NCBI GenBank assembly: GCA_001799975.1
Contig: MGUQ01000030.1
Coordinates: forward strand, 5,480 to 19,291
Reading direction: 5' to 3'
DNA: 13,812 nucleotides
DNA from: Elusimicrobia bacterium RIFCSPLOWO2_01_FULL_54_10
GTDB taxonomy: Bacteria; Elusimicrobiota; Elusimicrobia; 2-02-FULL-39-32
Below, piece by piece: positions 1 through 13,215 of the stretch (positions within the stretch are counted from its first letter, which is position 1; every line of letters begins with the position of its first letter). Under the pieces are notes generated by a model. The model did no database searches. It saw only the letters and a list, made by a program, of their open reading frames with translations, and had not been told where the DNA came from. The translations under genes were made by a program, and so were the position numbers.

Positions 1-100
1 GGTTGATGCCGTTGACAAGCGTCAAGGCCGCCAGAAGCGGCAGTAAAACGCCTAAGTCAGCGAACGCTCCGGTGAGATTGCCCCAATGCTTTGCTTTCAT
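1..100 (-). CDS. MOT1-type molybdate/sulfate transporter, N-terminal fragment
   Basis: Only the first 33 codons are in the window; the gene continues past the left edge. The start is ATG at 100, preceded by a strong ribosome binding site (GGGGAGGGCC directly before it). The visible residues begin MKAKHWGNLTGAFADLG and continue into a hydrophobic stretch, LLPLLAALTLVNGIN. The order G-x-x-x-DLG, then PL, then LVNG is what I know from the first membrane segment of the MOT1 (MFS_MOT1) molybdate/sulfate transporter family. The gene overlaps the end of moaCB by 44 bases in another frame and is last in the Moco operon, where molybdate uptake makes sense. Family assignment rests on a short segment, so another polytopic transporter is possible, but the start, ribosome binding site and context agree. 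Confidence 0.72.
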   Translation of the reverse strand, partial: MKAKHWGNLTGAFADLGVLLPLLAALTLVNGIN

Positions 101-1043
101 GGCCCTCCCCTGAAATCATGCGGAAGATGTGATCGAACGCTGGAATCAAAAGATTTAAATTTTCGGAAACAGCTGCCGGTTTTCCCGGCAGATTGACGAT
201 CAAAGTCTTGCTTTTGAGGCCGGCCACAGCCCGGGAAAGAAATGAAGAGGTTGGATGTTTGGCGAAAGACTGCGCGCGGAGCATTTCGGCTATTCCGGGG
301 ATTTTGCGGTCAATCACGCGTTCAGTGGCTTCGGGCGCCACGTCCCGATGGGACAGGCCTGTGCCGCCCAGAGTCAAAATTAAATCGGGCGCCAGATTCT
401 CGCAAAAATTCAGAAGTCTCTCGGCAATGAGGTCTAGCTCGTCCGGAATAATTTCGCAGTGCGCCAGCTCAAAACCAATTTTTTTCAGAGCCTCTCGCGC
501 AACGGGCCCGCTCAAATCCTGATAAATTCCACGACTGGCGCGGTCGCTTAAAGTGAGGATCACCGCCCGCTTGCCTGAAAGCCCGTCCAGATGATGCCCG
601 CTTTTGCCTCCGGTTTTTGCTTCCAACCTGACTTCATCAATCACCATGGACGGATCCATGGACTTGCACATGTCATAGAGCGTCAGGGCGGCCACCGTGC
701 AGGCCACAAGAGCTTCCATTTCCGGCCCCGTGGCGGCGATGGCCTCAACCCGAGAAACAATTTTTACTCCGGCCTCCAGAACAGAAATGTCCACGCTGAT
801 GTCACCGGCACTCAGGGAATGGCAAAGCGGAATCAAATGAGGGGTTAGTTTTGCCGCCTGAATTCCCGCCACCTGAGCCACGGTCAGGGCGTCCCCTTTG
901 GGCAGGCGCTTACTTTTCAAAGCCTCCAAAGTAGTGGCGGAGGCGCGCAAAAAACAGGAGGCCTTTGCGCTTCTCAAAGTCTCGGGCTTGGCTGTGACCC
1001 CGACCATCTTGGGCCGGCCGTTGGCATCAATATGAGAAAACAA
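57..1043 (-). CDS. moaCB: MoaC-MoaB fusion, molybdenum cofactor biosynthesis
   Basis: Bifunctional cytoplasmic Moco enzyme of 328 residues. Residues 1-155 are MoaC, which with MoaA converts GTP to cyclic pyranopterin monophosphate. Visible MoaC motifs are KGD (49-51), AGIQAAK (59-65), LIPLCH (69-74), GPEMEAL (106-112), LYDMCK (122-127) and KSGGKSG-like KTGGKSG (143-149). Residues 158-312 are a MoaB/MogA domain, the molybdopterin adenylyltransferase fold, with LSDRAS (165-170), LGGTG (225-229), RDV (233-235) and LPGKP (285-289). I chose TTG at 1043 because MoaC proteins begin right at this point (MFSHIDANG), and a GGGAGG sits 10 bases upstream. The frame stays open to 1250, but that part is out-of-frame moaE sequence. 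It overlaps moaE by 17 bases and the next transporter gene by 44. The fusion supplies the MogA/MoaB step locally; MoeA is not seen here. Confidence 0.93.
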   Translation of the reverse strand: MFSHIDANGRPKMVGVTAKPETLRSAKASCFLRASATTLEALKSKRLPKGDALTVAQVAGIQAAKLTPHLIPLCHSLSAGDISVDISVLEAGVKIVSRVEAIAATGPEMEALVACTVAALTLYDMCKSMDPSMVIDEVRLEAKTGGKSGHHLDGLSGKRAVILTLSDRASRGIYQDLSGPVAREALKKIGFELAHCEIIPDELDLIAERLLNFCENLAPDLILTLGGTGLSHRDVAPEATERVIDRKIPGIAEMLRAQSFAKHPTSSFLSRAVAGLKSKTLIVNLPGKPAAVSENLNLLIPAFDHIFRMISGEGHESKALGQSHRSVR

Positions 1044-1437
1044 GTTTTTCCGCCTCCCGCGAAATAAATTCCTTTTTCCAGATGGGGGAGATTTCTTTGA
1101 CGCGGTCAATCGCGTAGCCGCAGGCCGCCAATGCTTCGGCCCGGTGCGGCGCGGAAGCGGCAACCAAGACGGCAATTTCACCGATTGAAAGCATCCCAAC
1201 GCGGTGGATAATGGACAGGTCCGATATTTTCCAAAGAACCTTCGCTTCAAGATTGATCTTTTTAAAACTTTTCAACGCCATCGGCTCATAGGCTTCGTAA
1301 CGGATTTTTCTCACCGGTTTTCCCTGGGAATGATTGCGCACAGTCCCCATAAAAGTCGCCGTTGCCCCATTCTCCGGGCTGGAAATTTGGGAGAGAACCC
1401 AAGGCACGTCAATGGGCGAATCGATAATCAAAAACAT
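1027..1437 (-). CDS. moaE: Molybdopterin synthase catalytic subunit MoaE
   Basis: Large subunit of molybdopterin synthase (136 residues), which inserts two sulfurs carried by thiocarboxylated MoaD into cyclic pyranopterin monophosphate. Family landmarks seen: FMGTVRNHSQG with R34, the YEAYEPMA segment (48-55), HR at 79-80 in the IIHRVG strand, SAPHRAEAL with H98 and R99, and the catalytic lysine region DRVKEISPIWKKE (K114, K121/K122). The ATG at 1437 lies two bases after the moaD stop, and the last two glycine codons of moaD (GGAGGT) serve as its ribosome binding site. Full length, no oddity. Its 3' end overlaps the moaCB start. Confidence 0.95.
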   Translation of the reverse strand: MFLIIDSPIDVPWVLSQISSPENGATATFMGTVRNHSQGKPVRKIRYEAYEPMALKSFKKINLEAKVLWKISDLSIIHRVGMLSIGEIAVLVAASAPHRAEALAACGYAIDRVKEISPIWKKEFISREAEKLVFSY

Positions 1438-1438
1438 G

Positions 1439-1678
1439 TTAACCTCCGCTCACAGGCGGAATCCAGGCAATTTCCTCATCGCCTTTCAGGCGGTAATCCA
1501 ACGCCTTCAATTCAAGGTTAACAGCCCATCGCCCGGGAACTTGCTCAAATTCTGGATATTCCCTGCCGATGAGGCGATTCAGTTCCAGAAGCGTGCAGTT
1601 TTCGGGCACATAAAACTCCATCTCATCCTTTTGAAACATCTCCCGAAACGAGGCAAAAAGTTTAATGGTGACGTTCAT
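1439..1678 (-). CDS. moaD: Molybdopterin synthase sulfur carrier MoaD
   Basis: Ubiquitin-fold sulfur carrier of 79 residues for molybdopterin synthase. It starts MNVTIKLFASFRE, typical of MoaD, and ends in the required SGG tail, whose last glycine is adenylated and thiocarboxylated in the family. I place the start at ATG 1678 because homologues start there. An in-frame ATG at 1696 would add MRAGGG and overlap the moaA stop, but its GGAGG abuts the start codon with no spacer. Translation is probably coupled to moaA, which ends 15 bases upstream. No MoeB-type activating enzyme is in the window. Confidence 0.92.
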   Translation of the reverse strand: MNVTIKLFASFREMFQKDEMEFYVPENCTLLELNRLIGREYPEFEQVPGRWAVNLELKALDYRLKGDEEIAWIPPVSGG

Positions 1679-1692
1679 CCCACCACCCGCCC

Positions 1693-2679
1693 TCATCCTC
1701 CCACTTGAGACATCCGCAGATTCCCGCTGACATAATGATCCGGCCGGATAAAATGCTCGTCCGGCTTGATCGTGAGAGCGTCGCGGATGATTTGCTTTAA
1801 TTCCGTGTCATCGGCGCCGCCCTGCAAAGCGGCCCGCAAATCGGCGGAGTCCGGCCCGTGCAGGCAGGTTTTCAACGCTCCGCGCGCCGTCAACCGAATC
1901 CGGTTGCAGGAGCCGCAGAAATGATTGGAGACGGGGCTGATAAATCCGATCTTGCCCAGCCCCTCTTCGATGGGGAAAACTTTTGCGACTCCGGAACAGG
2001 GTTCCTCGGCTCCCAAAGTCACAACCCTTTCGATCCTCATCTTGATCTCATCCGCGGAAACGAAGGAGTCCGGGTCCGCTCCCGCAGTCCCCTCAAAGTT
2101 GTTGGCGGTGGGCATCAGCTCCAAAAAACGGACTTCGACGGGAGCCCTTTTGGCAAAAAGCGCGAACTCCTCCACTTCGTCTAGGTTCCATTCCCGCATC
2201 ACGACCATGTTGATTTTAACGGGCTCGAGGCCCGCATCCACGGTGTCCCAAATCCCTCTCAAGACTCGGTCAAGGGCGGCCATGCCCGTGATTTTATGAA
2301 ACCGCTCTGCCTGGAAAGTGTCCAGGCTGATGTTGACCCGTTTTAAGCCCGCCGCGACTAAAGATTGAACCCGGTGGCTGAGCAGAACGCCGTTGGTCGT
2401 CAGAGAGACGTCCTCAATGCCCAAACGAATAATTTCCGAGAGGATTTCTTCCAATTCAGGTCGGAGGAGCGGCTCCCCTCCCGTGAGCCTGATTTTTGTC
2501 ATTCCCATATCCCTAAAAACTTTCAACAAACGCTTCAGCTCCTCCAAATCCAGAAGGCTGTCTTTGGGAAAAAACCGAATGCCGGTGTTCGGCATGCAGT
2601 AACGGCAGCGCAAGTTACAGCGGTCCGTCAAAGAGACCCGCAAATAAGAAACGCGCCGCCGCAGCCCGTCTTCGGTCAT
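1693..2679 (-). CDS. moaA: GTP 3',8-cyclase MoaA, radical SAM
   Basis: Radical SAM enzyme of 328 residues that carries out the first Moco step on GTP together with MoaC. The N-terminal cluster motif is C21-x3-C25-x2-C28 in DRCNLRCRYC, followed by the SAM-binding GGEP (67-70). The second, substrate-side cluster is C255-x2-C258-x13-C272 in CGSC...KTC. The protein ends in RMSQVGG, keeping the C-terminal Gly-Gly tail known to matter for MoaA function. ATG at 2679 shares one base with the stop of the upstream P-II gene (TAATG), so the two are translationally coupled. All hallmark residues are present. Confidence 0.97.
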   Translation of the reverse strand: MTEDGLRRRVSYLRVSLTDRCNLRCRYCMPNTGIRFFPKDSLLDLEELKRLLKVFRDMGMTKIRLTGGEPLLRPELEEILSEIIRLGIEDVSLTTNGVLLSHRVQSLVAAGLKRVNISLDTFQAERFHKITGMAALDRVLRGIWDTVDAGLEPVKINMVVMREWNLDEVEEFALFAKRAPVEVRFLELMPTANNFEGTAGADPDSFVSADEIKMRIERVVTLGAEEPCSGVAKVFPIEEGLGKIGFISPVSNHFCGSCNRIRLTARGALKTCLHGPDSADLRAALQGGADDTELKQIIRDALTIKPDEHFIRPDHYVSGNLRMSQVGG

Positions 2680-2996
2680 TAGAGCCCTGTTTTTCCGGTC
2701 CGAATGGTGGAAACCTGCTCCACCGTCGAAATAAAAATTTTCCCGTCTCCGAAATTTCCGGTTTTGGCCGCTTGAGCGATGGCTCCGGAAGCTTTTTCCA
2801 CCATGGGATCTTCCACCACCACCATGATCATGGTTTTGGCCAATTCGTCATAGACGGCGGTTCCGACCTGAATGCCCTTTTGCTTTCCCCTGCCGAAGAC
2901 ATCCATCTTCGTCACGGAAGGGAACCCCGCGCTTTCCAGCCCCTTGACCACATCTTCTTCCTTTTCCGGCCGTATAATCGCTCGAATCATTTTCAT
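2679..2996 (-). CDS. P-II family nitrogen regulator, NifI1-like
   Basis: P-II signal protein of 105 residues, normally a trimer that senses 2-oxoglutarate, ADP and ATP and binds target enzymes or transporters. It starts MKMIRAIIRPEK and carries the P-II B-loop signature TGNFGDGKIFI (79-89) and the C-terminal IRTGKTG. The T-loop region (KMDVFGRGKQKGIQVG at 30-45, then VYDELAKT at 48-55) matches the NifI1 subgroup, known from nif clusters, rather than GlnB/GlnK. The GlnB uridylylation tyrosine context is missing. A perfect AGGAGG site precedes ATG 2996, and the nirA stop is 11 bases upstream. With no nif genes in the window, the likely targets are NarK, NirA or the molybdoenzyme (inference). 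A second, NifI2-like protein opens the operon. Confidence 0.93.
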   Translation of the reverse strand: MKMIRAIIRPEKEEDVVKGLESAGFPSVTKMDVFGRGKQKGIQVGTAVYDELAKTMIMVVVEDPMVEKASGAIAQAAKTGNFGDGKIFISTVEQVSTIRTGKTGL

Positions 2997-3007: not shown

Positions 3008-4594
3008 TTAATCTAAACAGCTTTCAGCGGGAATCATCACAACTCTTTGTTCCGCTTCCACGTCCCGGCGCACTTTTTTAAGCAAAGTCATGTTGCGCAG
3101 GATGGGTTCCAAAACATCCGGCAAAATGTCGCAGGGCACCAGCTCCATGATCTTTTCCGCGGGCCTGGCGTCCTTGCCGGTCTTGCCGCCCACAAAAACA
3201 TGCACCGCGTCCACAATCTTACCGTCGATGTTCGCTTTGATCCCTTGAAACCCGATGTCCGCCGTGTGGTGATTGCCGCAGCCCGCGGCACAGCCCGACC
3301 AACGCATGCGGACATTCCCGGTCTTTTCTTTTCCCAGCCGCTTTTCCAAATTCTCCGTGACTTTCACCGCAATTCCCTTGGTTTCGATCAACGCCAGACT
3401 GCAATAATCGATGCCCACGCAGGAAACCAGGCCCCGGAACAGGGGAGTGGGATTGGGAGGAAGTTGAGTGAGGAGTGGCTCATCTAGCAAAGGCTTGAGG
3501 TTTTTCTGCGGAACGTTGACCAGAATCATGTTTTGCTGAGGCGTGATGCGGATTTCGGAGCTCCCGTAAACTTCAGACAAGCGCGCGATTTCGTGAAGTT
3601 GTTTGGCGCTCACGCGCCCCACGGAAATAGAGAGCCCCACGGCATTAAGTCCAGGCTGTTTTTGGGCGGTGACCCCCAAGTGGTCCGTCTCAACTTCTTT
3701 TCGCAAATCGGTTCCCGCGCGCTCAAGCTTGCCGCCAAAGCGCCGGGTCCAACGGGCCTCAAGTTCCGCCCTGAATTTTTCCATGCCCCACGCTTCCAGG
3801 AGAAATGCCAGGCGGGCTTTGGTTCTTTCCGCCCTGAAACCATGATCCCTGAAAATCAAAGGAATTTCGGAACAAAGACTTACGGCGTCTTCAGGAGGAA
3901 CGAAAACGTCGAGAACGGTCGCGTTGTAAAAACCTCCGGAGCCCATCTTTCCGCCGACAAAAACATTAAAGCCGTTGATGACGGAGCCGTTGATTACCTT
4001 TGAGGCGGGCACGAGGCCTATGTCCTGCGATTCCGGATGCGTGCAATTTTCCAGGCAACCTGTCAGAGTTACATTCATCTTGCGCGGCAGGTTGGTATAG
4101 TCCTTGTTATTGAGAAAGACATTTGTAAAATCTACCGCGAGGGGATAAGCGTCAAGCGATTCGTTGGGGGTCAGTCCCGCCAAAGCGCAGGTGTTGACGC
4201 CGCGGATGTTGTCCAGGCCCGTTTGCAGACTGTTCAAATCCACATCTTCAAGCTCTTTTAGTATTTGGGGGACGGATTCGATCCGAATGGCGCGGAGCTC
4301 AATCTGCTGGCGCGTGGTGATGTCCAAAACCTCGTTGCCCAGGCGTTCGGAAATTTGGGCAAGAGCGTGAAATTGCTTTGCCGTCGCTCTCCCGCCCGTG
4401 ATGCGGACCCTCATCATAAAGAAACCCGGAGTTTTTTTGCGCAGAAAAGTCCCGATCCACTTAAGGCGCTCGGCATTTTGAGGCGAAAGATTGGCATAGC
4501 CGTTGGCCGCCAGAGTTTCGATTTCCTGGAGAATGTCCAGGCCGTCTTTTTCCGCCTTGATTTTTTCTATTGGGTTCGTCCCCGGGGAAAACAT
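3008..4594 (-). CDS. nirA: Siroheme nitrite reductase, ferredoxin type (NirA-like)
   Basis: Cytoplasmic siroheme and [4Fe-4S] enzyme of 528 residues in the nitrite/sulfite reductase family, reducing nitrite to ammonium with six electrons, in this subclass usually from ferredoxin. Two pseudo-repeats are visible. An N-terminal ferrodoxin-like half has MRVRITGG (61-68) and DITTRQQIELRAI (91-103). The C-terminal half carries the cluster ligands C392-x5-C398 (CVGIDYCSLALIETK) and C435-x3-C439 (RWSGCAAGCGNHH). Length matches NirA, and there are no FAD or NADH domains as in NirB. It starts at ATG 4594, sharing one base with the narK stop (TGATG). A sulfite reductase role cannot be excluded from sequence alone, but the nitrate transporter and P-II neighbours favour nitrite. 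No ferredoxin gene is in the window. Confidence 0.9.
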   Translation of the reverse strand: MFSPGTNPIEKIKAEKDGLDILQEIETLAANGYANLSPQNAERLKWIGTFLRKKTPGFFMMRVRITGGRATAKQFHALAQISERLGNEVLDITTRQQIELRAIRIESVPQILKELEDVDLNSLQTGLDNIRGVNTCALAGLTPNESLDAYPLAVDFTNVFLNNKDYTNLPRKMNVTLTGCLENCTHPESQDIGLVPASKVINGSVINGFNVFVGGKMGSGGFYNATVLDVFVPPEDAVSLCSEIPLIFRDHGFRAERTKARLAFLLEAWGMEKFRAELEARWTRRFGGKLERAGTDLRKEVETDHLGVTAQKQPGLNAVGLSISVGRVSAKQLHEIARLSEVYGSSEIRITPQQNMILVNVPQKNLKPLLDEPLLTQLPPNPTPLFRGLVSCVGIDYCSLALIETKGIAVKVTENLEKRLGKEKTGNVRMRWSGCAAGCGNHHTADIGFQGIKANIDGKIVDAVHVFVGGKTGKDARPAEKIMELVPCDILPDVLEPILRNMTLLKKVRRDVEAEQRVVMIPAESCLD

Positions 4595-5892
4595 CAGTAC
4601 ATCTCCATGACGGGAATGACAGGAAACATGAGAACCCTGACTTCTTCCATCGGCAACGCTTTTCCATCCGCATCAATCCAGTCCTCCACCCAATGCTTTT
4701 GTCTCATCTGAAAGACTGCAAAAGCAAATAATGTCAAAATCCCAAAGCTCAGGAACCCCAAGGCAAAACTGCCCGTGGCCTGTTTTGAGATGCCCATTGC
4801 ATTTGGGATAAAGGCGCCGCCCAAAGCTCCGATTTCACCAATCAGACTTGAAGCCACGGCCGTTGCCAAAGGAAACCGCAAGGGCACCAACTGAAAAACT
4901 GAGCCATTGCCCGCGCCAAGACCGGCGAAAATGATCAAAAGGATCGCGGTGCAGCCATAAATCCCTGGAAGAAAGGCGCACGCAATAGACCCCGCTAAAA
5001 CAATGAAAAATACCGGTCTCAAGGCCTTGATGCCTCCGACCGAATCGGCAAAATAACCGCCTAATATTCTGGCCACACTGCCCATCAGCACAACCAAAGT
5101 TGCAAATTGCCCCGCTTTGATTTTGCTCACCCCAAATTGGTCATGGAAAAATGTGGGCATGAAATTTGCCAGACCGATGAAACCTCCGAAAGTGACGACG
5201 TAAATGAGATTGAACGTCCAGGAATCCTTGTCGATCAAAACCCGGAGATAGTCATTCAAACTTTTCTTATCCTGAGTGGGAGGCTCTTTTGCAAAAATCA
5301 AAAGAATAAGGAGCGCGGCAAGCATGGGAATGACAGCCAAACCATAAACCGCGTTCCAGCCGTATCTCTGCGCCAGCGGCGGGCCAAACAGTGTCGCAAG
5401 GACCGTGCCGCTATTGCCGGCCCCGGAAATTCCCATGGCTAACCCTTTGTATTCAGGCGGATAAGACCCCGAACCCAGGGAAAGCGCAACCCCAAAACTT
5501 GCGCCCGCAATTCCCAGCAAAACACCCATCACCAAAACTTCATGATAGGTGCTTACAAACAACCAGCCATAGATCAAAGCAAGACTTGTCAAAGACATTT
5601 CCATGATCGCGGCGGATTTGCGTCCGATAATTTCCGCCAAGACTCCCAAAGGAAAACGCATCAGAGCTCCAGACATAATGGGAATCGAAACCATCAAACC
5701 TTTCTGCGCTGGCGTTAGATGGAATTGTTCGCTGATAAATGGGGCCATGGCTCCATTCAAAACCCAAACGGCGAAGCAAACGTCAAAATACAGAAAAGCA
5801 CTGAGGAGCGTCGGCAAATGCCCGGCTTTGGCAAATTTGGCCAGTCTGCTTTTTACGTTATCAAAGTTCATGAAGCTTGAGGTGTTTCTCAT
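4594..5892 (-). CDS. narK: NarK/NasA-type nitrate/nitrite transporter, MFS
   Basis: Inner-membrane major facilitator of 432 residues with about 12 hydrophobic segments. Nitrate/nitrite-porter features are the first nitrate signature region GISGAGNSGTVLATLFGPPLA (split around 153-173) and the second, GLGAGNGSVFQLVP (about 324-337), whose G-x-GNG core is diagnostic of the NNP family. The membrane segment before the central loop ends in AKEPPTQDKKS. ATG 5892 overlaps the stop of the upstream molybdoenzyme gene by four bases (ATGA). The C-terminal tail (WVEDWIDADGKALP) is cytoplasmic and polar. In this operon it should bring in nitrate and/or nitrite for reduction to ammonium. A P-II protein next door could gate it, as shown for cyanobacterial nitrate uptake (inference). 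Confidence 0.92.
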   Translation of the reverse strand: MRNTSSFMNFDNVKSRLAKFAKAGHLPTLLSAFLYFDVCFAVWVLNGAMAPFISEQFHLTPAQKGLMVSIPIMSGALMRFPLGVLAEIIGRKSAAIMEMSLTSLALIYGWLFVSTYHEVLVMGVLLGIAGASFGVALSLGSGSYPPEYKGLAMGISGAGNSGTVLATLFGPPLAQRYGWNAVYGLAVIPMLAALLILLIFAKEPPTQDKKSLNDYLRVLIDKDSWTFNLIYVVTFGGFIGLANFMPTFFHDQFGVSKIKAGQFATLVVLMGSVARILGGYFADSVGGIKALRPVFFIVLAGSIACAFLPGIYGCTAILLIIFAGLGAGNGSVFQLVPLRFPLATAVASSLIGEIGALGGAFIPNAMGISKQATGSFALGFLSFGILTLFAFAVFQMRQKHWVEDWIDADGKALPMEEVRVLMFPVIPVMEMY

Positions 5893-6560
5893 TGCGATTC
5901 CTCGCTCGTCGGATGGCGTTCCTGATGAACCACTCTGCCTTCCAGAGGCCCGAGCCCGTATTTATTTTTCCAGGCCGGAGCCAATTTGCCGGTCTTGGAT
6001 TGCGCCAATAAAATTTTTATCCCCAAAGGATCGTTTTGAAAAGAACGGATGCCGGAGAGCCACTTGACGCTCTTGTATCCCTGGAGAAACGGGACCGCCA
6101 GACGCACGGGCCCGCCGTGCTCGTGGCTTAAGGCGTCTCCATTCATGCCATAAATCACCAAAGACCTCTCGTCCATCGCCTCTTTCCGGGTCAAAGACTC
6201 GAAATAGTTTTTGTCCCGGGAATAGAAAGCGTAATAGCGGTTCTCTTTCCCGGCCATTCCCAGAAATTCCAAAACATTTTTCAGTTTCCAGCCTTCCCAG
6301 CGCACCACCTCCGCCCAGTTGAAAATCTGGCAAATGAGGGGCATGCGGGTCTTGAGTTTGGAAACTTTCTGCAAATCATCCCAGGAAAAATTGCGCGTCT
6401 TGCAATCCAGCCCGCAAACGGAAATTTTCACCTGTTCTTTGGAGATGGGCTTGGGCATTTCGTACAGGCTAATCAGTGGAACAGCCCTTTTCGCGCTGAA
6501 ATCCAGCACGGAAAAATGCTCTTTGAATTTGGGATATCGGACGTCCGGGCGGTCCGGCAC
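5889..6560 (-). CDS. Small cytoplasmic SUOX-fold molybdoenzyme, candidate nitrate reductase
   Basis: Single-domain protein of 223 residues from the sulfite-oxidase-fold molybdopterin family (MsrP/YedY, YuiH, sulfite oxidase, eukaryotic nitrate reductase). C77 in RMPLICQIFNWAEVVRWEGW aligns with the molybdenum-ligand cysteine. Further landmarks are YGMNGDALSHEHGGPVRL (137-154) and KSVKWLSGI (163-171). There is no signal peptide or twin-arginine motif, no haem b5 or FAD domain, and no dimerisation domain, so it should act in the cytoplasm with a separate electron donor. A cysteine pair (C49, C53) sits in the first strand region. The GTG start at 6560 shares a base with the preceding stop (TAGTG) and has an upstream GGAGG. 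It lies between P-II and NarK/NirA in a Moco operon, so nitrate reduction is plausible but not proven. A YuiH-like oxidoreductase of unknown substrate is the alternative. Confidence 0.85.
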   Translation of the reverse strand: MPDRPDVRYPKFKEHFSVLDFSAKRAVPLISLYEMPKPISKEQVKISVCGLDCKTRNFSWDDLQKVSKLKTRMPLICQIFNWAEVVRWEGWKLKNVLEFLGMAGKENRYYAFYSRDKNYFESLTRKEAMDERSLVIYGMNGDALSHEHGGPVRLAVPFLQGYKSVKWLSGIRSFQNDPLGIKILLAQSKTGKLAPAWKNKYGLGPLEGRVVHQERHPTSEESQ

Positions 6561-6907
6561 TAGACTAAAACCTCCGAGCCCTTCTCCCCGGTACGTACCC
6601 GCTCAACCATTTCCAGAGGGCAAACGAAAATTTTCCCGTCTCCGATTTCTCCGGTCCTGTTGCTTTCGGTCAGAAGGCCGATGACCTTTTCCACGTCTTC
6701 AACGGGAACAAACAAAGTGACCATTCTTTTGGGAAGAAAACAAATTCCCTCAATGACTTCTCTGGATTTGGACAAATACTGCAGGCCTTTTTGCCGCCCG
6801 CGTCCATAAACCCTGTGAACCGTGAACGCGTTGTAGCCTTCTTCCAAAAGCCTGGCTTTGGTCTTGGGCCACTGGTTGGGCCGGATGATGGCGATAATTT
6901 CTTTCAT
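6560..6907 (-). CDS. P-II family nitrogen regulator, NifI2-like
   Basis: P-II protein of 115 residues and first gene of the operon. It begins MKEIIAIIRPN and has RVYGRGRQKGLQY (32-44), a T-loop about six residues longer than in the partner protein, LPKRMVTLFVP (58-68), the B-loop signature TGEIGDGKIFV (85-95) and RVRTGEKG (103-110). The longer T-loop and the LPKRM segment are characters I associate with NifI2, the partner of NifI1 in nitrogenase control. I chose ATG 6907, which matches P-II N-termini and has GGAGGG ten bases upstream. A second in-frame ATG at 6964 with its own strong GGGAGGAG site would add 19 residues. The two P-II proteins may form a mixed complex acting on this operon's enzymes (inference). 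Confidence 0.9.
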   Translation of the reverse strand: MKEIIAIIRPNQWPKTKARLLEEGYNAFTVHRVYGRGRQKGLQYLSKSREVIEGICFLPKRMVTLFVPVEDVEKVIGLLTESNRTGEIGDGKIFVCPLEMVERVRTGEKGSEVLV

Positions 6908-6940
6908 GATTCCCTCCGGTGTCTCAATTTGAATTCTGAC

Positions 6941-6996
6941 ACAAATAAAAAAGGCGTTCTTCATAATTCTCCTCCCGGAGATTCGAAGAACGCCTT
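6941..6996 (-). terminator. Leader intrinsic terminator (attenuator) of the nitrate operon
   Basis: Read on the minus strand, AAGGCGTTCTTC (6996-6985) pairs perfectly over 12 bp with GAAGAACGCCTT (6962-6951), separated by a 22-base loop, and is followed by TTTTATTTG. This is a textbook intrinsic terminator placed 44 bases before the first structural gene, inside the leader, so it would stop transcription of the whole operon unless overridden. The loop contains a GGGAGGAG ribosome binding site, and the ATG at 6964 sits at the base of the 3' arm. Confidence 0.82.
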
Positions 6997-7105: not shown

Positions 7106-7990
7106 ATGCTGATCGAGACCCTCAAAGTGTTCTGCGACGCGGTGGACTTGAAAAGCTTCTCCAAGGCGGCAGAAGCCAATTACGTCACCCAATCTTCCGT
7201 GAGCCAGCAGATCAAAAAGCTGGAGAAGGAGTGGAAGGCGGCGCTGATTGAGCGCGCCAACCGCGACATGGCCCTGACGCGGGAAGGCGAGATTGTGTAC
7301 AAGGAAGCCAAGAGCGTGCTTAAGCATTATGAGGCCATCGGGCAAACCCTGGGAAAGACCCCCCAGACGGTCAACGGCACGGTGCGCCTGGCCGCGATCC
7401 TGGGCGTGGGCCTCCATGAACTCCCTCCCTATATCAAGCAATTCATTCATCAATATCCCCAGGTGGACGTGCGCCTGGACTACATGTACCACGACAAGGT
7501 CTATGAAAGCGTGCTCAAGAAAAGAGCGGATTTGGGAGTTGTGGCCTTCCCCACTCCCAGGATCGGCATCCGCATCCTGCCTTTCCGGAACGACCCGCTC
7601 GCCATCGTCTGCCACCCGCGGCATCCGTTGGCCCGGAAAAAATCAATCGAAATATCAAAAATCAACGGGTTAAACTTCGTCACCTTCCAAACCGGATATC
7701 CCACCGGAGACGCGGTGGAGGAATTCTTAAGGTCGCGCCGCGTAACGGTCAAGACGATCATGCGCTTTAACAACATCGAAATGATCAAGGGCGCGGTGGA
7801 GATTGACGCGGGCATCTCGATTCTTCCGGTGGTGTCCGTTCAAAACGAGCTTAAGCACCGGACGCTTAAGGCGGTTAAGATTGCGGGGAAACCTCTGATG
7901 CGCACCCTGGGCATCATTTTAAGGGGAGAAAGCGTCCTGCCCGAAGCGGCCTTAAAATTTGTGGAGATTCTGCGCCAGGGGAGGAACTGA
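7106..7990 (+). CDS. LysR-type transcriptional regulator, divergent to nitrate operon
   Basis: DNA-binding regulator of 294 residues. The winged helix-turn-helix occupies roughly residues 1-60, with LKSFSKAAEANYVTQSSVSQ (15-34) followed by QIKKLEKEW and LTREGEIVY (58-66). The rest is a periplasmic-binding-protein-like effector domain starting at about residue 90 (GTVRLAAILG). Divergent placement with an AT-rich shared promoter makes it the likely regulator of the nitrate operon, as NtcB or Cbl/CysB relatives are elsewhere; the effector is unknown. The ATG at 7106 has no recognisable ribosome binding site, so the mRNA may be leaderless or initiation atypical. No terminator is visible after the stop. 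Confidence 0.93.
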   Translation: MLIETLKVFCDAVDLKSFSKAAEANYVTQSSVSQQIKKLEKEWKAALIERANRDMALTREGEIVYKEAKSVLKHYEAIGQTLGKTPQTVNGTVRLAAILGVGLHELPPYIKQFIHQYPQVDVRLDYMYHDKVYESVLKKRADLGVVAFPTPRIGIRILPFRNDPLAIVCHPRHPLARKKSIEISKINGLNFVTFQTGYPTGDAVEEFLRSRRVTVKTIMRFNNIEMIKGAVEIDAGISILPVVSVQNELKHRTLKAVKIAGKPLMRTLGIILRGESVLPEAALKFVEILRQGRN

Positions 7991-9639: not shown

Positions 9640-9643
<4 letters not shown>

Positions 9644-10203
9644 AAAGCTGGGCCAAAATCAGCGGCATTTTGATGTTGGGGCTTTTATGCGGTGCCATGC
9701 CTGATAAAACTGTTTACGACTTCTCCGTCAAAAGCATCGATGGAAAAGAAATTTCCCTGAAGGACTATTCCGGCAAGGTTCTGCTGATTGTGAACACAGC
9801 CTCCGAATGCGGCTTTACGGGCCAATACAAAGATCTCGAAGCAGTGTATCAGAAGTACAAGGATAAGAGACTCGTTGTGTTGGGATTTCCGAGCAACGAT
9901 TACGGCGGGCAGGAGCCGGGCAGCAATTCGGACATCAAAAGCTTTTGCGAAATGAAATTTAAAACAACCTTCCCTCTTTTTGACAAGGGCCCCGTTTCCG
10001 GAGACGGCATCCAGCCGCTTTTCAAACACCTCACTGAAACGGCCAATCCCAAGCACGACGGAAAAATCCTCTGGAACTTTGAAAAATTCGTGGTGGATCG
10101 CGAGGGCCGTTTAATCGAGCGATATCGCTCCATCACCTCTCCCTCCAGCGGACGCGTGGCCAAAGTTCTGGAAAAAGCTCTCGCCGAACCCGCAGGACGA
10201 TAA
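9640..10203 (+). CDS. Glutathione-peroxidase-family thiol peroxidase, probably exported
   Basis: Thioredoxin-fold peroxidase of 187 residues that reduces hydrogen peroxide or lipid hydroperoxides. The cysteine tetrad is complete: C57 in NTASECGFTGQY, Q91 in GGQEPG, and W145/N146 in LWNFEKFVVD. C103 in SFCEMKF sits where thioredoxin-dependent family members carry the resolving cysteine, so thioredoxin is a likelier reductant than glutathione (family knowledge). Residues 1-19 (MKSWAKISGILMLGLLCGA) resemble a signal peptide, pointing to the periplasm; most bacterial relatives lack one. The ATG at 9640 overlaps the Rho-like stop (ATGA) and has a strong GGAGGAGG eight bases upstream. Confidence 0.92.
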
Positions 10204-10213
10204 CAAATTACGA

Positions 10214-10642
10214 ATGAGCATTAAAACAAAATGTTGGGAAGGGGATTTAAAGGGCGGCAAAGGGTCAGTGAAGCTGGGCAGCGGAGCATTCCAAGGGGCC
10301 TTTTCTTTCGCTTCGCGGTTTGAAAGCGGAACAGGCACCAATCCGGAAGAATTGATCGGCGCGGCGCACGCGGGCTGTTATTCCATGGCGCTCTCGCACA
10401 TGCTGGCCTCCAAGGGATTCACTCCCAAGAAAGTGTCCACCACGGCGGAAGTGAAACTTGAGAAAGTCGGCGACGGCTTCAAGATCACCAACATCAACCT
10501 CAAGATGGAAGCCGATGTGCCCAAGATCGACCAGAAGACCTTCATGGAAAACGCGGAAGCGGCCAAGAAGGGCTGCCCGATCTCACAGGCCCTGGCTTCC
10601 ACCAACATCACGCTCGAAGCCAAACTTCTGCAGAACGCCTGA
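10214..10642 (+). CDS. osmC: OsmC-family peroxiredoxin
   Basis: Cytoplasmic organic-hydroperoxide reductase of 142 residues, OsmC subgroup. The two redox cysteines are C55 in AAHAGCYSMAL and C121 in AKKGCPISQAL. The N-terminal part has GSGAFQGAFSFASRFE and GTNPEELIGAAHAG, both typical of OsmC. It lies 10 bases after the peroxidase gene and has no strong ribosome binding site. With the neighbouring peroxidase it makes a peroxide-defence pair. Confidence 0.94.
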   Translation: MSIKTKCWEGDLKGGKGSVKLGSGAFQGAFSFASRFESGTGTNPEELIGAAHAGCYSMALSHMLASKGFTPKKVSTTAEVKLEKVGDGFKITNINLKMEADVPKIDQKTFMENAEAAKKGCPISQALASTNITLEAKLLQNA

Positions 10643-10653
10643 TCCGGGCGTTC
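10633..10653 (+). other. Hairpin spanning the osmC stop codon
   Basis: GAACGCC pairs perfectly with GGCGTTC around a seven-base loop that contains the osmC stop codon. It lies just before ppnP and has no T-run, so it is not an intrinsic terminator. It may protect the mRNA or tune ppnP translation. Confidence 0.4.
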
Positions 10654-10660
10654 AAGATCC

Positions 10661-10978
10661 ATGGAGCAGCTTGAAAAAGTAACGCTCAAACTCAAAGCCA
10701 ACGTCTATTTCGACGGGGGCGTGGTGAGCCATACGGTCATCACGGCGGACGGTGAGCGAAAAACCGTCGGCTTGATCCGCAAGGGCGAATATCATTTCAC
10801 CACGGACGCTCCCGAACGCATGGACATCATCTCGGGCACCTGCAGAGTGAAACTGGCGGGGGAAAAAGACTGGAAAACTTATTCCGCCGGCGCGGGATTC
10901 AATGTGGCGGAAAAATCTGCTTTTGACATCGCGGTGGACACGGGGCTGGCAGAGTATCTCTGCTCGTTCCTGAACTAG
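10661..10978 (+). CDS. ppnP: Pyrimidine/purine nucleoside phosphorylase PpnP
   Basis: Small cupin-like phosphorylase of 105 residues (the YaiE family) that splits nucleosides into base and ribose 1-phosphate in the cytoplasm. Recognised from ANVYFDGGVVSH (14-25), VGLIRKGEYHFTTDAPERMDI (split at 36-56), SGTCRVKL and the ending SAFDIAVDTGLAEYLCSFL, all in the order seen in E. coli PpnP. It lies 18 bases after osmC and has only a weak ribosome binding site. Its stop codon overlaps that of the convergent ABC-F gene on the sequence CTAG. Confidence 0.92.
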   Translation: MEQLEKVTLKLKANVYFDGGVVSHTVITADGERKTVGLIRKGEYHFTTDAPERMDIISGTCRVKLAGEKDWKTYSAGAGFNVAEKSAFDIAVDTGLAEYLCSFLN

Positions 10979-12480
10979 TTCTCTTCTTCGGCTTCCTCTT
11001 CCTGCTGTTTCTTGCGCCTCTCAAAATACTCGTAATTGCCAGGATAGAGAGTCACTTTGCCGTGGTGCACGTGCACCACATGGCTGGCCAGGGCGTTCAC
11101 AAAGTATAAATCGTGGCTGATGAAGCAAAGCGTCCCTTCAAAATCCGCCAGGGCGGACACCAGAGCTTCTACGCTGTCCAAATCAAGGTGAGTGGTGGGC
11201 TCGTCCATGAGCAGCACATTGGGCGGATCCAGCAAAATCTTGACCAGTGAAAGACGGCTTTTTTCTCCGCCGCTCAACACCTTCACCTGTTTGAACACAT
11301 AATCCCCCCGAAAGAGAAAACTACCCAAAACACTGCGCACCGTCTGCTCATTTAAATCCCTCGGCACTCCGAGCGCTTCCTGGAGCACGGTTTTTTCCGG
11401 GTCAAGCGATTCCGCGCGGTGCTGGGAGAAATAGCCCACTTTCACTCCGAGCCCGAGTTTCTTTTCGCCTTTGTCGACGGGAATGGCTCCGGCAAGGATT
11501 TTAAGCAATGTGGACTTGCCCGCGCCGTTATGGCCCACAAAAGCCATCTTCCAACCGCGCTCCAGATCAAAATTAAGACCTTGATAGACTTTGATGTCGC
11601 CGTAGGATTTGTAAACGTCTTTCAGCTCGAGCGTGCGCACGCCCGTGCGCTGGGGCTGGGGAAATTTGATCTTGAGCTTCTTGGCTTCTTCAGGCAATAC
11701 AATGCGCTCCACCTTTTCCATGCGTTTGAGCATGCTCTGCGCCCGGCTGGCCGTGGAGGCCCGCGAGCGGTTACGGTTCACAAAATCCTGCATGTCCGCC
11801 AGCTCCGCCTGCTGCGCGCGGTAGGCCTGTTCCAGGCGTTCCTTGTCTTCGGCGCGCTGTCTCACATAAAATTCATAGTTGCCGCTGTAAACCTTGAGCG
11901 TCTTGTTCTCGAGGCTCACCACGGCCTTGCACACGGTGTTGATGAACTGGCGGTCGTGGGAAATGAGAAAGATGGAGCCGCGATAGGAAAGCAGGTAATT
12001 CTGGAACCACAGCATCGATTCTAAATCGAGGTGATTGGTGGGTTCGTCAAGCATGAGCAGGTTGGGCTCTTCCACCAGGAGCCGTGCCATGGCCACGCGC
12101 ATGGCCCAGCCGCCGGAGAGCGTGTTCACCTTGCGCTCAAAATCAGTTACTTTGAAACCCAAACCCATCAGAATGGCTTTGGCTTTGGCCGCCATTCTGC
12201 CGTCCGGGTCTTCCGTGTGCGCCAGGGAGTCCTCCAGCACCGTCAAGTCAGAAACAGGAGCATTCTCCTGAGGGAGATATCCGGTGGTGATGCCGCGCTT
12301 GAACTGGATCTCGCCTTCATCCGGGAATTCTTCGGATAAGAGCATTTTGAGAAACGTGGATTTGCCCGCGCCGTTGGGGCCCACCAGAGCGTAGCGGTCG
12401 CCCGCGTTGATCTGGAGATTGGCTTCTTCCAGAAGAGTCTGGAGCCCGTAAGATTTGTGGACATTTTTAACGGTAATCAT
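10975..12480 (-). CDS. ABC-F family ATPase
   Basis: Soluble protein of 501 residues with two ABC ATPase domains and no membrane segments, the layout of ABC-F ribosome-binding factors (EttA, Uup, YbiT and YheS relatives). Domain 1: Walker A GPNGAGKS (34-41), LSGGW (121-125), LMLDEPTNHLD (142-152). The interdomain linker (about 205-262) is charged and helical. Domain 2: Walker A GHNGAGKS (316-323), LSGGE (402-406), LLMDEPTTHLD (423-433). The usual DEPTNHLD signature is DEPTTHLD in domain 2, and the protein has no visible EttA-type arm insertion. The C-terminus is a short Glu/Lys tail. ATG 12480 has no clear ribosome binding site. Subfamily and substrate on the ribosome cannot be assigned by eye. 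Confidence 0.93.
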   Translation of the reverse strand: MITVKNVHKSYGLQTLLEEANLQINAGDRYALVGPNGAGKSTFLKMLLSEEFPDEGEIQFKRGITTGYLPQENAPVSDLTVLEDSLAHTEDPDGRMAAKAKAILMGLGFKVTDFERKVNTLSGGWAMRVAMARLLVEEPNLLMLDEPTNHLDLESMLWFQNYLLSYRGSIFLISHDRQFINTVCKAVVSLENKTLKVYSGNYEFYVRQRAEDKERLEQAYRAQQAELADMQDFVNRNRSRASTASRAQSMLKRMEKVERIVLPEEAKKLKIKFPQPQRTGVRTLELKDVYKSYGDIKVYQGLNFDLERGWKMAFVGHNGAGKSTLLKILAGAIPVDKGEKKLGLGVKVGYFSQHRAESLDPEKTVLQEALGVPRDLNEQTVRSVLGSFLFRGDYVFKQVKVLSGGEKSRLSLVKILLDPPNVLLMDEPTTHLDLDSVEALVSALADFEGTLCFISHDLYFVNALASHVVHVHHGKVTLYPGNYEYFERRKKQQEEEAEEEN

Positions 12481-12506
12481 AAATTATGGAATCGTAGATA
12501 ATATCA

Positions 12507-12512
12507 TATAAT
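12507..12512 (+). promoter_or_regulatory. Candidate -10 box for the small gene and msrB
   Basis: TATAAT lies 33 bases before the ATG at 12546 in an AT-rich divergent intergenic region (12481-12545). The -35 position 17 bases upstream reads TTATGG, a poor match. The predicted start near 12519 leaves a short leader with the ribosome binding site AAGGAG at 12535-12540. The same AT-rich stretch must also hold the ABC-F promoter on the other strand. Confidence 0.5.
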
Positions 12513-12545
12513 AAGAATAAGTCGTCATAAACCAAAGGAGACCCC

Positions 12546-12707
12546 ATGGCCATTATCGAGGAATCAGAATACAAAGGCAACCCCATGATCGTGATCAAGA
12601 ATTCAGCGGAAGATAAATTTCCGTTCCAGTTCGGCGTGAAAAAAGCCAAGCTGGTGCTGGAAAACATTGAAGCCGTAAGAAAATTTGTGGAAAAGCACGA
12701 TAAATAA
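12546..12707 (+). CDS. Small hypothetical protein, 53 residues
   Basis: Short cytoplasmic protein beginning [17 protein letters not shown] and ending FVEKHDK. It has an excellent ribosome binding site (AAGGAG, five bases before ATG) and a TATAAT upstream, so I think it is expressed. The sequence has a beta-strand-like start, a [14 protein letters not shown] centre (23-36) and a charged C-terminal helix ([13 protein letters not shown]). There are no cysteines, signal peptide or membrane segment. I do not recognise a named family. Its stop is four bases before the msrB GTG start, so the two are likely co-translated. Confidence 0.8.
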
Positions 12708-12711
12708 CCTC

Positions 12712-13215
12712 GTGCGGGGGTTTTCTTTTCTGCTTGTTCTCGCGCTAGGCGCCCTCAGCCCCGCAGCCCAAGCGGGGGAAAAGCCAAAGTCCAAAAAACA
12801 GGCCGTCAAGGAAGCCAAAGTGACCGACAATCTAAATAAAACAGATGCCGAGTGGAAAAAAGAATTGTCCGACGAGCAGTTCTGCATTCTGCGGCAAAAA
12901 GCCACGGAGCGCGCATTCTCCGGGAAATATAATGACCATCATGAGAAGGGAGTTTATAAGTGCGCGGCCTGCGGAGCGGAGCTTTTTGGCTCAGACACCA
13001 AGTTTGACTCCCGCTCAGGCTGGCCCAGCTATTTTGCGCCTGTTTCCAGCGGGGCGGTGACTGAAAAAACGGACAATGACCACGGCATGCAGCGCACCGA
13101 AGTGATCTGCTCGCGCTGCGGCGGCCATCTGGGCCATGTTTTTGACGACGGCCCAAAGCCCACAGGCTTGCGCTACTGCATCAACTCCGCCTCACTTAAT
13201 TTCGAAAAGAAGTGA
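12712..13215 (+). CDS. msrB: Peptide-methionine (R)-S-oxide reductase MsrB, exported
   Basis: MsrB of 167 residues that repairs methionine R-sulfoxide in proteins. The zinc site is C84/C87 (CAAC) and C133/C136 (CSRC). The catalytic cysteine is C156 in [10 protein letters not shown], with SGWPSY (102-107) and HGMQRTEV (124-131) also present. C58 in EQFCILRQ may be the resolving cysteine, since the usual second position in SGCGWPS is serine here. The N-terminus [21 protein letters not shown] is a Sec signal peptide, so the enzyme acts outside the cytoplasm. I chose GTG 12712 because it gives a clean signal peptide and directly follows the upstream stop. A TTG at 12685 in the same frame would add nine residues. 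No ribosome binding site is evident, suggesting coupling. Confidence 0.92.

Follow-up and report, generated by a model that had tools for sequence, protein, structure and literature searches.

A minimal SUOX-fold protein as a probable assimilatory nitrate reductase in Elusimicrobia and related operons of other phyla

A SUOX-fold gene lies between P-II and NarK genes

The stretch of DNA analyzed here (the window; 13,812 nucleotides of contig MGUQ01000030.1 from Elusimicrobia bacterium RIFCSPLOWO2_01_FULL_54_10) carries on its minus strand an operon with the gene order P-II, SUOX, NarK, NirA, P-II, MoaA, MoaD, MoaE and MoaC/B. The subject of this work is the second of these genes (5889..6560, minus strand), which begins at a GTG codon and encodes a 223-residue SUOX-fold molybdoprotein that we propose to be an assimilatory nitrate reductase. 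Its start (TAGTG) shares one base with the stop codon of the upstream P-II gene and its end shares four bases with the narK open reading frame (ORF), so that these genes are likely to be co-translated. The upstream gene encodes a P-II family protein (PII_a; 6560..6964, minus strand; PF00543, E 1.3e-21), and downstream lie a NarK-family nitrate/nitrite transporter (4594..5892, minus strand; TIGR00886, E 8.4e-73, 245.6 bits, below the cut-off of 311.7), a NirA of the ferredoxin-nitrite reductase type (3008..4594, minus strand; NF007125, E 1.2e-147, 492.5 bits, below the cut-off of 594) that also matches PF01077 and PF03460, and a second P-II family protein (PII_b; 2679..2996, minus strand; PF00543, E 1.7e-27). 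The SUOX gene is hence accompanied in the window by a nitrate transporter and a nitrite reductase, the context of an assimilatory enzyme.

The remaining genes of the operon, all on the minus strand, belong to molybdenum cofactor (Moco) synthesis. They encode MoaA (1693..2679; TIGR02666, 349.1 bits, above the cut-off of 284.05), a putative MoaD (1439..1696; assigned by position and a C-terminal GG), a putative MoaE (1027..1437; assigned by position and sequence) and a fused MoaC/MoaB (57..1250; NF002947, 328.8 bits, above the cut-off of 285). Homologs of the putative MoaD and MoaE occupy the matching place at two related loci (L021, L022; L and G numbers denote loci and genomes, G000 being the source genome), and the MoaC/MoaB family matches start at ORF residue 68-82, indicating that the actual start codon probably lies beyond 1250, further downstream. 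This Moco set does not include MobA, and Moa genes are clustered with SUOX in the window and in L021, L022 and L038. An earlier note, made from the sequence alone, had placed a SUOX-fold protein with a ligand cysteine between P-II and NarK, in an operon with a nitrite reductase, two P-II genes and Moco genes; the family scans bear this description out, MoaD and MoaE being identified by position and sequence.

The protein retains an invariant cysteine and a single domain

The protein matches PF00174 (Oxidored_molyb) with an E value of 1.6e-27 and 96.6 bits against a curated cut-off of 24, and PF00174 is the sole domain that the family scan finds in the 223-residue chain. The scan detected neither a cytochrome b5 or FAD/NADH domain nor the Molybdopterin domain (PF00384) that defines NasA/NarB, and inspection by eye revealed no signal peptide at the N-terminus (MPDRPDVRYPKF). 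Cys77, the presumed molybdenum ligand, lies within the motif CQIFNW, and a second motif, QGYKSVKW, spans residues 160-167; a tail of the form DPxGIKxLxxQS is conserved as well. The cysteine is invariant in 34/34 aligned homologs, which span seven phyla according to their record titles, and it is one of 34 invariant columns in total; a chance ORF was rejected on this basis. In profile alignments, the Cys77 column coincides with the cysteine column of plant (1ogp) and Thermus (6y0k) sulfite oxidases and falls one column away from the MsrP cysteine.

An AlphaFold2 model of the protein (pLDDT 81.8) was compared with known structures using Foldseek and VIA, and matched sulfite oxidases, MsrP and eukaryotic nitrate reductase (NR). 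The best match was chicken sulfite oxidase in Foldseek and sulfane dehydrogenase in VIA, with most rows close in Z, and the two methods cannot separate sulfite oxidase, MsrP and NR for this model. PruR structures are also among the matches. Together with the location of SUOX genes beside P-II, or fused to it, this would fit a PruR-like pterin-binding regulator that acts with P-II and performs no molybdenum chemistry; we hold such a role to be very improbable, given the strict conservation of the cysteine and the Moa genes present in the same cluster at four loci.

Relatives form a clade found mainly at nitrate loci

To place the protein in a wider context, we scanned one genome per species for 84,980 species using short exact peptides, which catch only close relatives, and found 38 loci. 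The tally of 36 relatives used below excludes L057 (34% identity) and L058 (a 45-residue fragment, whose genome is nevertheless counted among the 36 clade genomes); two of the loci, L054 and L056, are in one metagenome-assembled genome (MAG) and may be the two ends of a single gene. The nearest relatives, at 80-84% identity, are from Elusimicrobiota. By record title, the 36 relatives belong to Elusimicrobia, Nitrospirota (including Troglogloeales, Manganitrophaceae and a Leptospirillum), Chloroflexota (Dehalococcoidia, SAR202) and Lindowbacteria, together with one Acidobacteria, one Poribacteria and one Thaumarchaeota MAG. A scan of viral contigs returned no relative. For Leptospirillum, the accessible part of PMC2607301 contains nothing on nitrate use.

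These genes reside mainly at nitrate loci, with nirA at 29/36, a nitrate transporter at 30/36 and P-II at 28/36, so that the check on the context of homologs did not refute the earlier note. The transporter is NarK at 26 loci and is encoded by Nrt genes at four (L025, L039, L042, L045); at L039 the permease passes TIGR01183 (236.7 against 209.05), the ATPase is slightly below its own cut-off (284.6 against 291.8) and the NrtA-like ORF matched no model at 1e-15. Of the seven loci without NirA, five end at a nearby contig edge (L029, L035, L037, L043, L054).

Phylogenetic analysis set the relatives apart as a clade of 39 of the 67 tree rows, divided from the rest by a branch with 91/97 support, with long-branch warnings for E. 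coli MsrP, L020, L057 and L018. All 39 clade ORFs share C-x-[IL]-F-N-W and QGYKSVKW. The outlier L057, from a Polyangium MAG, scores 143 bits and keeps QGYKSVKW, and has CRAVTW at the cysteine motif; it adjoins ORFs reading as ketol-acid reductoisomerase and isopropylmalate synthase, and no nitrate genes were found in 7.2 kb. The clade is also sharply delimited by profile scores. Among 217 Nitrospirota genomes, seven score 290-351 bits and all other listed matches score at most 95. When the best 30 SUOX-fold loci from these genomes were compared over flanks of up to 1.5 kb, shorter than those read for the 36 relatives, P-II together with NarK or NirB genes accompanied 7/7 clade members and 0/23 other SUOX-fold loci.

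Two further observations concern the gene content of relatives. The locus labelled Thaumarchaeota (L024, JACPSZ010000017.1) has the order NirA-SUOX-NarK-MoaA on a 234-kb contig, in a genome that also encodes an NXR-like protein of 1163 aa (L140), and represents either archaeal carriage or a mislabelled bin. In Nitrospirota, a NirB-type N-terminal half is fused to the NirA-type nitrite reductase, giving proteins of about 1010-1060 aa (L026:11281-14457, L031:10630-13671 and similar), which are perhaps an NADH-fed NirA.

NasA-type genes take the place of SUOX in related operons

A sister genus in the same family (G053, G102; 96-98% complete) keeps the operon of LysR, P-II, NarK, NirA and P-II, with identities to the window of 56% for LysR, 64-67% for NarK, 73-75% for NirA and 82-83% for PII_b. 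No SUOX match was found in either genome. Their operon continues instead with an Fe-S protein, a 738-aa MopB, a MobA-like protein of 217-218 aa and MoaA. The MopB scores 484 bits on a formate dehydrogenase (Fdh) model (TIGR01591) and 451 and 439 bits on the NasA models, none above cut-off; since the Fdh model outscored the NasA models (L067, L079), class was read from the Cys-Met or Cys-His pair at the molybdenum-ligand position and from the operon, and we class this MopB as NasA-type by the Cys-Met motif RQCMATAV at that place and by its operon. The window itself encodes a LysR-type regulator divergent from the operon (7106..7990, plus strand), whose counterparts, 53-56% identical, occupy the matching place in L022 and in the NasA-type operons L067 and L068.

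Comparable arrangements were found elsewhere. G227 has the order PII-NirA-PII-NasA-NarK, its NasA scoring 878 bits on the NasC model (cut-off 1100), and five Nitrospirota NasA-type loci (L298-L302) contain NasA, a like Fe-S partner and a NirB-type gene, with no clade SUOX gene. In a set of 245 Dehalococcoidia genomes, SUOX occurs in six and NirA (E<=1e-60) in 34, and 6/6 SUOX genomes have NirA (Fisher 4.8e-6, a descriptive value, the genomes being related). In 14 of these genomes a NasA-type gene lies directly beside NirA, with the Cys-Met motif in 14/14 and NarK at 13/14 loci (it was not found in L303). Five PII-NirA-PII loci (L286-L290) and five NirA-only loci (L291-L295) contain no NarK, NrtA/NrtB, SUOX or NasA, L292 having one NrtC-like ATPase. 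Across 31 Dehalococcoidia NirA loci, a molybdoenzyme gene (SUOX or NasA-type) is present at all 19 loci with a transporter, and at two (L303, L036) of the 12 without one (Fisher 1.5e-6); L247, on a contig of 3.3 kb, L314-L316, which are sulfite-reductase-like at 33-35% identity, and a partial second NirA in G276 are left out of this table. Its 19 loci include L296, whose NasA-like gene is broken (456 aa, 504 bits) and yielded no ligand motif. The genome of L296 (G567) combines a SUOX-type cluster (L321) with this second NirA-NarK locus, perhaps a replacement in progress.

Among the 217 Nitrospirota genomes, seven have SUOX and 13 have a high-scoring NasA (L188-L200), with no overlap. This exclusivity is not significant alone, and the argument therefore rests on synteny instead. 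Lower-scoring matches comprise a Nas-like gene (L087) in G269, which has SUOX, and a Cys-Met gene (L201) in G380, which has no clade SUOX; G408 and G464, both with SUOX, also have low-scoring NasA-profile matches.

The exchange of SUOX for NasA, the linkage to nitrate transporters and the overlap with narK bear on what the enzyme acts upon. The SUOX family includes sulfite, sulfane and methionine-sulfoxide enzymes, and the first two are represented by the top fold matches of the model, so that the protein might act on another small oxyanion or N-oxide (sulfite, chlorate or an N-hydroxylated compound), its vicinity to nirA reflecting shared nitrogen regulation only. Against the three features just named, we regard this as a rather remote prospect.

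Other molybdoenzymes and MobA in the source genome and the clade

The source genome is a 1.89-Mb bin that is 79% complete, and absences from it are hence not final. It contains one PF00174 gene, the SUOX gene of the window, and one PF00384 gene, whose product of 1144 aa resembles NxrA (phmmer E 1.7e-280 to Kuenenia NXR-A) and has a Tat-like N-terminus (RREFF). This nitrite oxidoreductase (NXR)-type locus, on contig C29 (L012:1266-7535, continuing to 15226), has its own Moco cluster; the neighbors of NxrA are an Fe-S subunit, a NarJ-like protein, an EB_dh (ethylbenzene-dehydrogenase)/cytochrome c protein, MoaC, MoaE-MoaB and a MobA-like protein, and further ORFs nearby read by eye as MoeA, MoaA and TatC. 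The organism is possibly a nitrite oxidizer or a nitrate respirer. Moco genes thus come in two sets in this genome: the set that includes MobA adjoins an exported enzyme of the type that uses bis-molybdopterin guanine dinucleotide (bis-MGD), and the set lacking MobA adjoins SUOX. The earlier note had taken the SUOX protein for the only molybdoenzyme and the Moco set to lack MobA; both statements hold for the window and its operon and fail for the genome. Its expectation that NasA/NarB would be missing agrees with the recovered part of the genome, where the lone PF00384 gene is of the NXR type.

A PF00384 search was then applied to the 37 genomes holding relatives, of which 36 are counted as clade genomes (the L057 genome being left out). 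No Nas-, Nap-, Nar- or Nxr-type enzyme was recognized by this search in 27/36. A Cys-Met Nas/Nap-like enzyme is present in six (G252, G254, G256, G267, G269 and, as a fragment, G272), and an NXR/type-II-like enzyme in four (G250, G256, G266, G280). Nas or Nap in most carriers was rejected, the PF00384 matches being mostly NuoG-type, with no cysteine at the molybdenum-ligand position, or Qrc-like. Residual matches comprise an unplaced DmsA/PhsA-like protein with a cysteine at that position (L144, G276), several short or unaligned sequences, and low-scoring Qrc-like rows that align unreliably. In Manganitrophus GAC4 (G278, titled complete), the four MopB matches are two NuoG-type, one Qrc-like and one NuoG-clustered, with no Nas among them. 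Enrichments of this genus receive 1 mM nitrate or ammonia as nitrogen source (PMC9040806), which speaks in favor of a nitrate reductase in these bacteria.

These results bear on the possibility that the operon assimilates nitrite, supplied by the organism's own NXR-type complex working as a nitrate reductase or by the environment, with NarK importing nitrite and the SUOX protein in an auxiliary role such as clearing sulfite, NO or oxidized methionine. The source genome does encode NxrA with its Fe-S subunit, NarJ-like protein and EB_dh/cytochrome c protein, NarK family members are named nitrate/nitrite transporters, and MsrP is the best NCBIfam match of the SUOX protein, though far under its cut-off (60.8 of 207). 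Three quarters of the clade genomes, on the other hand, have no recognized enzyme of this kind, the NarK-less PII-NirA-PII loci of Dehalococcoidia also lack SUOX, and none of the NasA-type operons read has a clade SUOX gene, although an auxiliary enzyme should occur there as well. We therefore consider this explanation unlikely.

A nitrate reductase that needs no MobA had been a further argument of the earlier note. It does not apply to the source genome, which has MobA, and it survives for part of the clade: 11/45 genomes searched gave no MobA match at E<=1e-5, and 11/11 carry the SUOX gene. Neither a nitrate reductase nor a formate dehydrogenase of the bis-MGD kind was recognized in these 11 genomes (in G302 and G438 by NasA profile only, E<=1e-100), and NasA would hardly be usable there. 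The TIGR02665 (MobA) cut-off was passed by 0/45 genomes and only 1/14 controls, so only the 11 genomes without a match count as negatives; MobA-model matches of 26-51 bits are ambiguous, including that of GAC4 (39 bits, partial).

P-II is adjacent or fused to SUOX

In 14/39 clade ORFs, one of them (L029) truncated, a single chain comprises a SUOX and then a P-II domain. Such fusions are seen in many Nitrospirota, the P-II domain being of the PII_a type and C-terminal of SUOX, as in L026 (PF00174 at 38-172, PF00543 at 253-361). The window and SAR202 loci have a P-II gene directly upstream of SUOX instead. The two P-II types of the operon resemble, we presume, the NifI1/NifI2 pair that binds nitrogenase directly.

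Comparison with known enzymes

To our knowledge, every nitrate reductase described from bacteria or archaea is a bis-MGD enzyme of the DMSO reductase family, and SUOX-type nitrate reductases are known only from eukaryotes, as large multi-domain proteins. Searches of the open full-text literature (subscription papers and preprints being outside its scope) brought up no paper on a bacterial SUOX-type assimilatory nitrate reductase or on a SUOX-P-II fusion.

Eukaryotic NR, of about 900 aa, has a CAGNRR-type motif where the window protein has CQIFNW. The eukaryotic assimilatory enzyme (Pichia angusta 2bih/2bii) is of the SUOX family like the window protein, which differs in its 223-residue length and its lack of heme and FAD domains, and in adjoining P-II, the eukaryotic enzyme being controlled by phosphorylation and 14-3-3. 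A comparison of eukaryotic NR with sulfite oxidases is given in PMC6400420. NasA/NarB shares with the window protein the proposed function, the cytoplasmic location and the partners NarK, NirA and P-II, and differs in its unrelated fold, its bis-MGD requiring MobA, its [4Fe-4S] cluster and its length of >700 aa.

MsrP (YedY) is likewise a single heme-free SUOX domain with a cysteine near a tryptophan, the window protein having one extra residue between the two; MsrP is its best NCBIfam model (NF003767), at the score given above against an equivalog cut-off. MsrP is Tat-exported and works with MsrQ, whose gene follows msrP in E. coli; no MsrQ is among the operon genes identified in the window. 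Small cytoplasmic SUOX proteins with a CVT-x-W motif (L018, L019, L175), which we take to be YuiH-like, are single-domain proteins of ~190-220 aa, like the window protein, but they fall outside the clade at the 91/97 branch and score 63-83 bits on the clade profile as against 280-350 for members, and the flanks of L175 contain no nitrate-gene neighbors. SorA, SorT and SoxC share the SUOX fold, and their NCBIfam models score 29.7-46.1 bits against equivalog cut-offs of 420-600. They are exported and have cytochrome partners, neither of which is seen for the window protein.

Other features of the window and its contig

Past the window, the same contig carries an ORF for a MOT1-type transporter and then MoeA. 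The MOT1 ORF continues without a frame change into the C-terminal portion of a phosphofructokinase ahead of MoeA (L013:3945-5576, contig C30); this joint is probably a misassembly, though it may be a genuine fusion. Six consecutive N adjoin the window start. On the plus strand at 9640-13215, ORFs named by eye as glutathione peroxidase, OsmC and MsrB appear to have no connection with the nitrate operon.

A proposed nitrate reductase and its implications

With good confidence, we propose that the window protein is the catalytic subunit of a SUOX-family assimilatory nitrate reductase, which would be cytoplasmic, carry molybdenum molybdopterin (Mo-MPT) and probably be gated by P-II and fed by ferredoxin. 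A small SUOX-related molybdenum protein would then probably replace the usual large bacterial enzyme that reduces nitrate to nitrite for nutrition. This proposal draws on features of the sequences themselves: the fold family, the conserved cysteine, the operon, the NasA swap, the P-II fusion and the local Moco set without MobA. The minimal SUOX-fold nitrate reductase suggested by the earlier note is thus well supported by independent context that the note did not have, including the swap in the sister genus.

Nitrate would be imported by NarK (by NrtABC in some relatives) and reduced to nitrite by the SUOX protein, whose Mo-MPT, ligated by Cys77, would accept two electrons singly in a chain with no heme, FAD or iron-sulfur domain. 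The electrons would probably come from the same ferredoxin that feeds NirA, and NirA (the NirB-NirA fusion in Nitrospirota) would convert nitrite to ammonium. P-II, in trans or in cis, would probably block the SUOX enzyme when ammonium is plentiful. Molybdenum content, nitrate as substrate, electron donor and P-II control are predicted properties.

Several observations weigh against this proposal. Nitrate reductase activity is a prediction from genome context, most clade genomes are MAGs, and no dedicated redox partner is seen for the SUOX protein. In sulfite oxidase and plant NR, an arginine at Cys+5 is an anion ligand; this position is tryptophan, in F-N-W, in 39/39 clade ORFs, and nitrate would thus be bound in a different manner. 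The NXR-type complex of the source genome could itself provide nitrite. Nitrospirota relatives L079, L080 and L104 also have a full NasA-type gene, and an ambiguous Nas-like gene (L087), a NasA fragment (L127) and a NapA-like gene (L084) occur in one genome each, so that exclusivity is not strict. As for gene context, L045 has Nrt genes but lacks a NirA gene over 10 kb, the surroundings of L023 (9 kb upstream, 1.3 kb downstream) are devoid of nitrate genes, and no transporter lies near L036, L052 or, on its downstream side only, L034. The Manganitrophus GAC4 SUOX-P-II gene (L052:9881-11020, CP114561.1) shifts frame twice, through either sequencing error or decay; a Manganitrophaceae copy (L035) is a single open frame of 371 aa. 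The Manganitrophus enrichments were mixed cultures.

With somewhat less assurance, we lean towards regarding these proteins as an undescribed class of prokaryotic nitrate reductase, in which a minimal heme- and flavin-free Mo-MPT SUOX domain replaces NasA, dispenses with MobA and bis-MGD in some lineages (Nitrospirota, groundwater Elusimicrobiota) and is switched by an adjacent or C-terminally fused P-II. If so, bacteria too, beyond plants and fungi, would have a SUOX-family nitrate reductase, and some nitrate-assimilating carriers would need no MobA. Surveys based on nasA/narB only would miss nitrate assimilation in SAR202, Manganitrophus-type Nitrospirota and groundwater phyla. The fusion of P-II to a nitrate reductase would constitute an unusually direct link to nitrogen sensing, in which enzyme and sensor can be one protein, and the family would offer a small single-domain system for studying how the SUOX active site selects nitrate.

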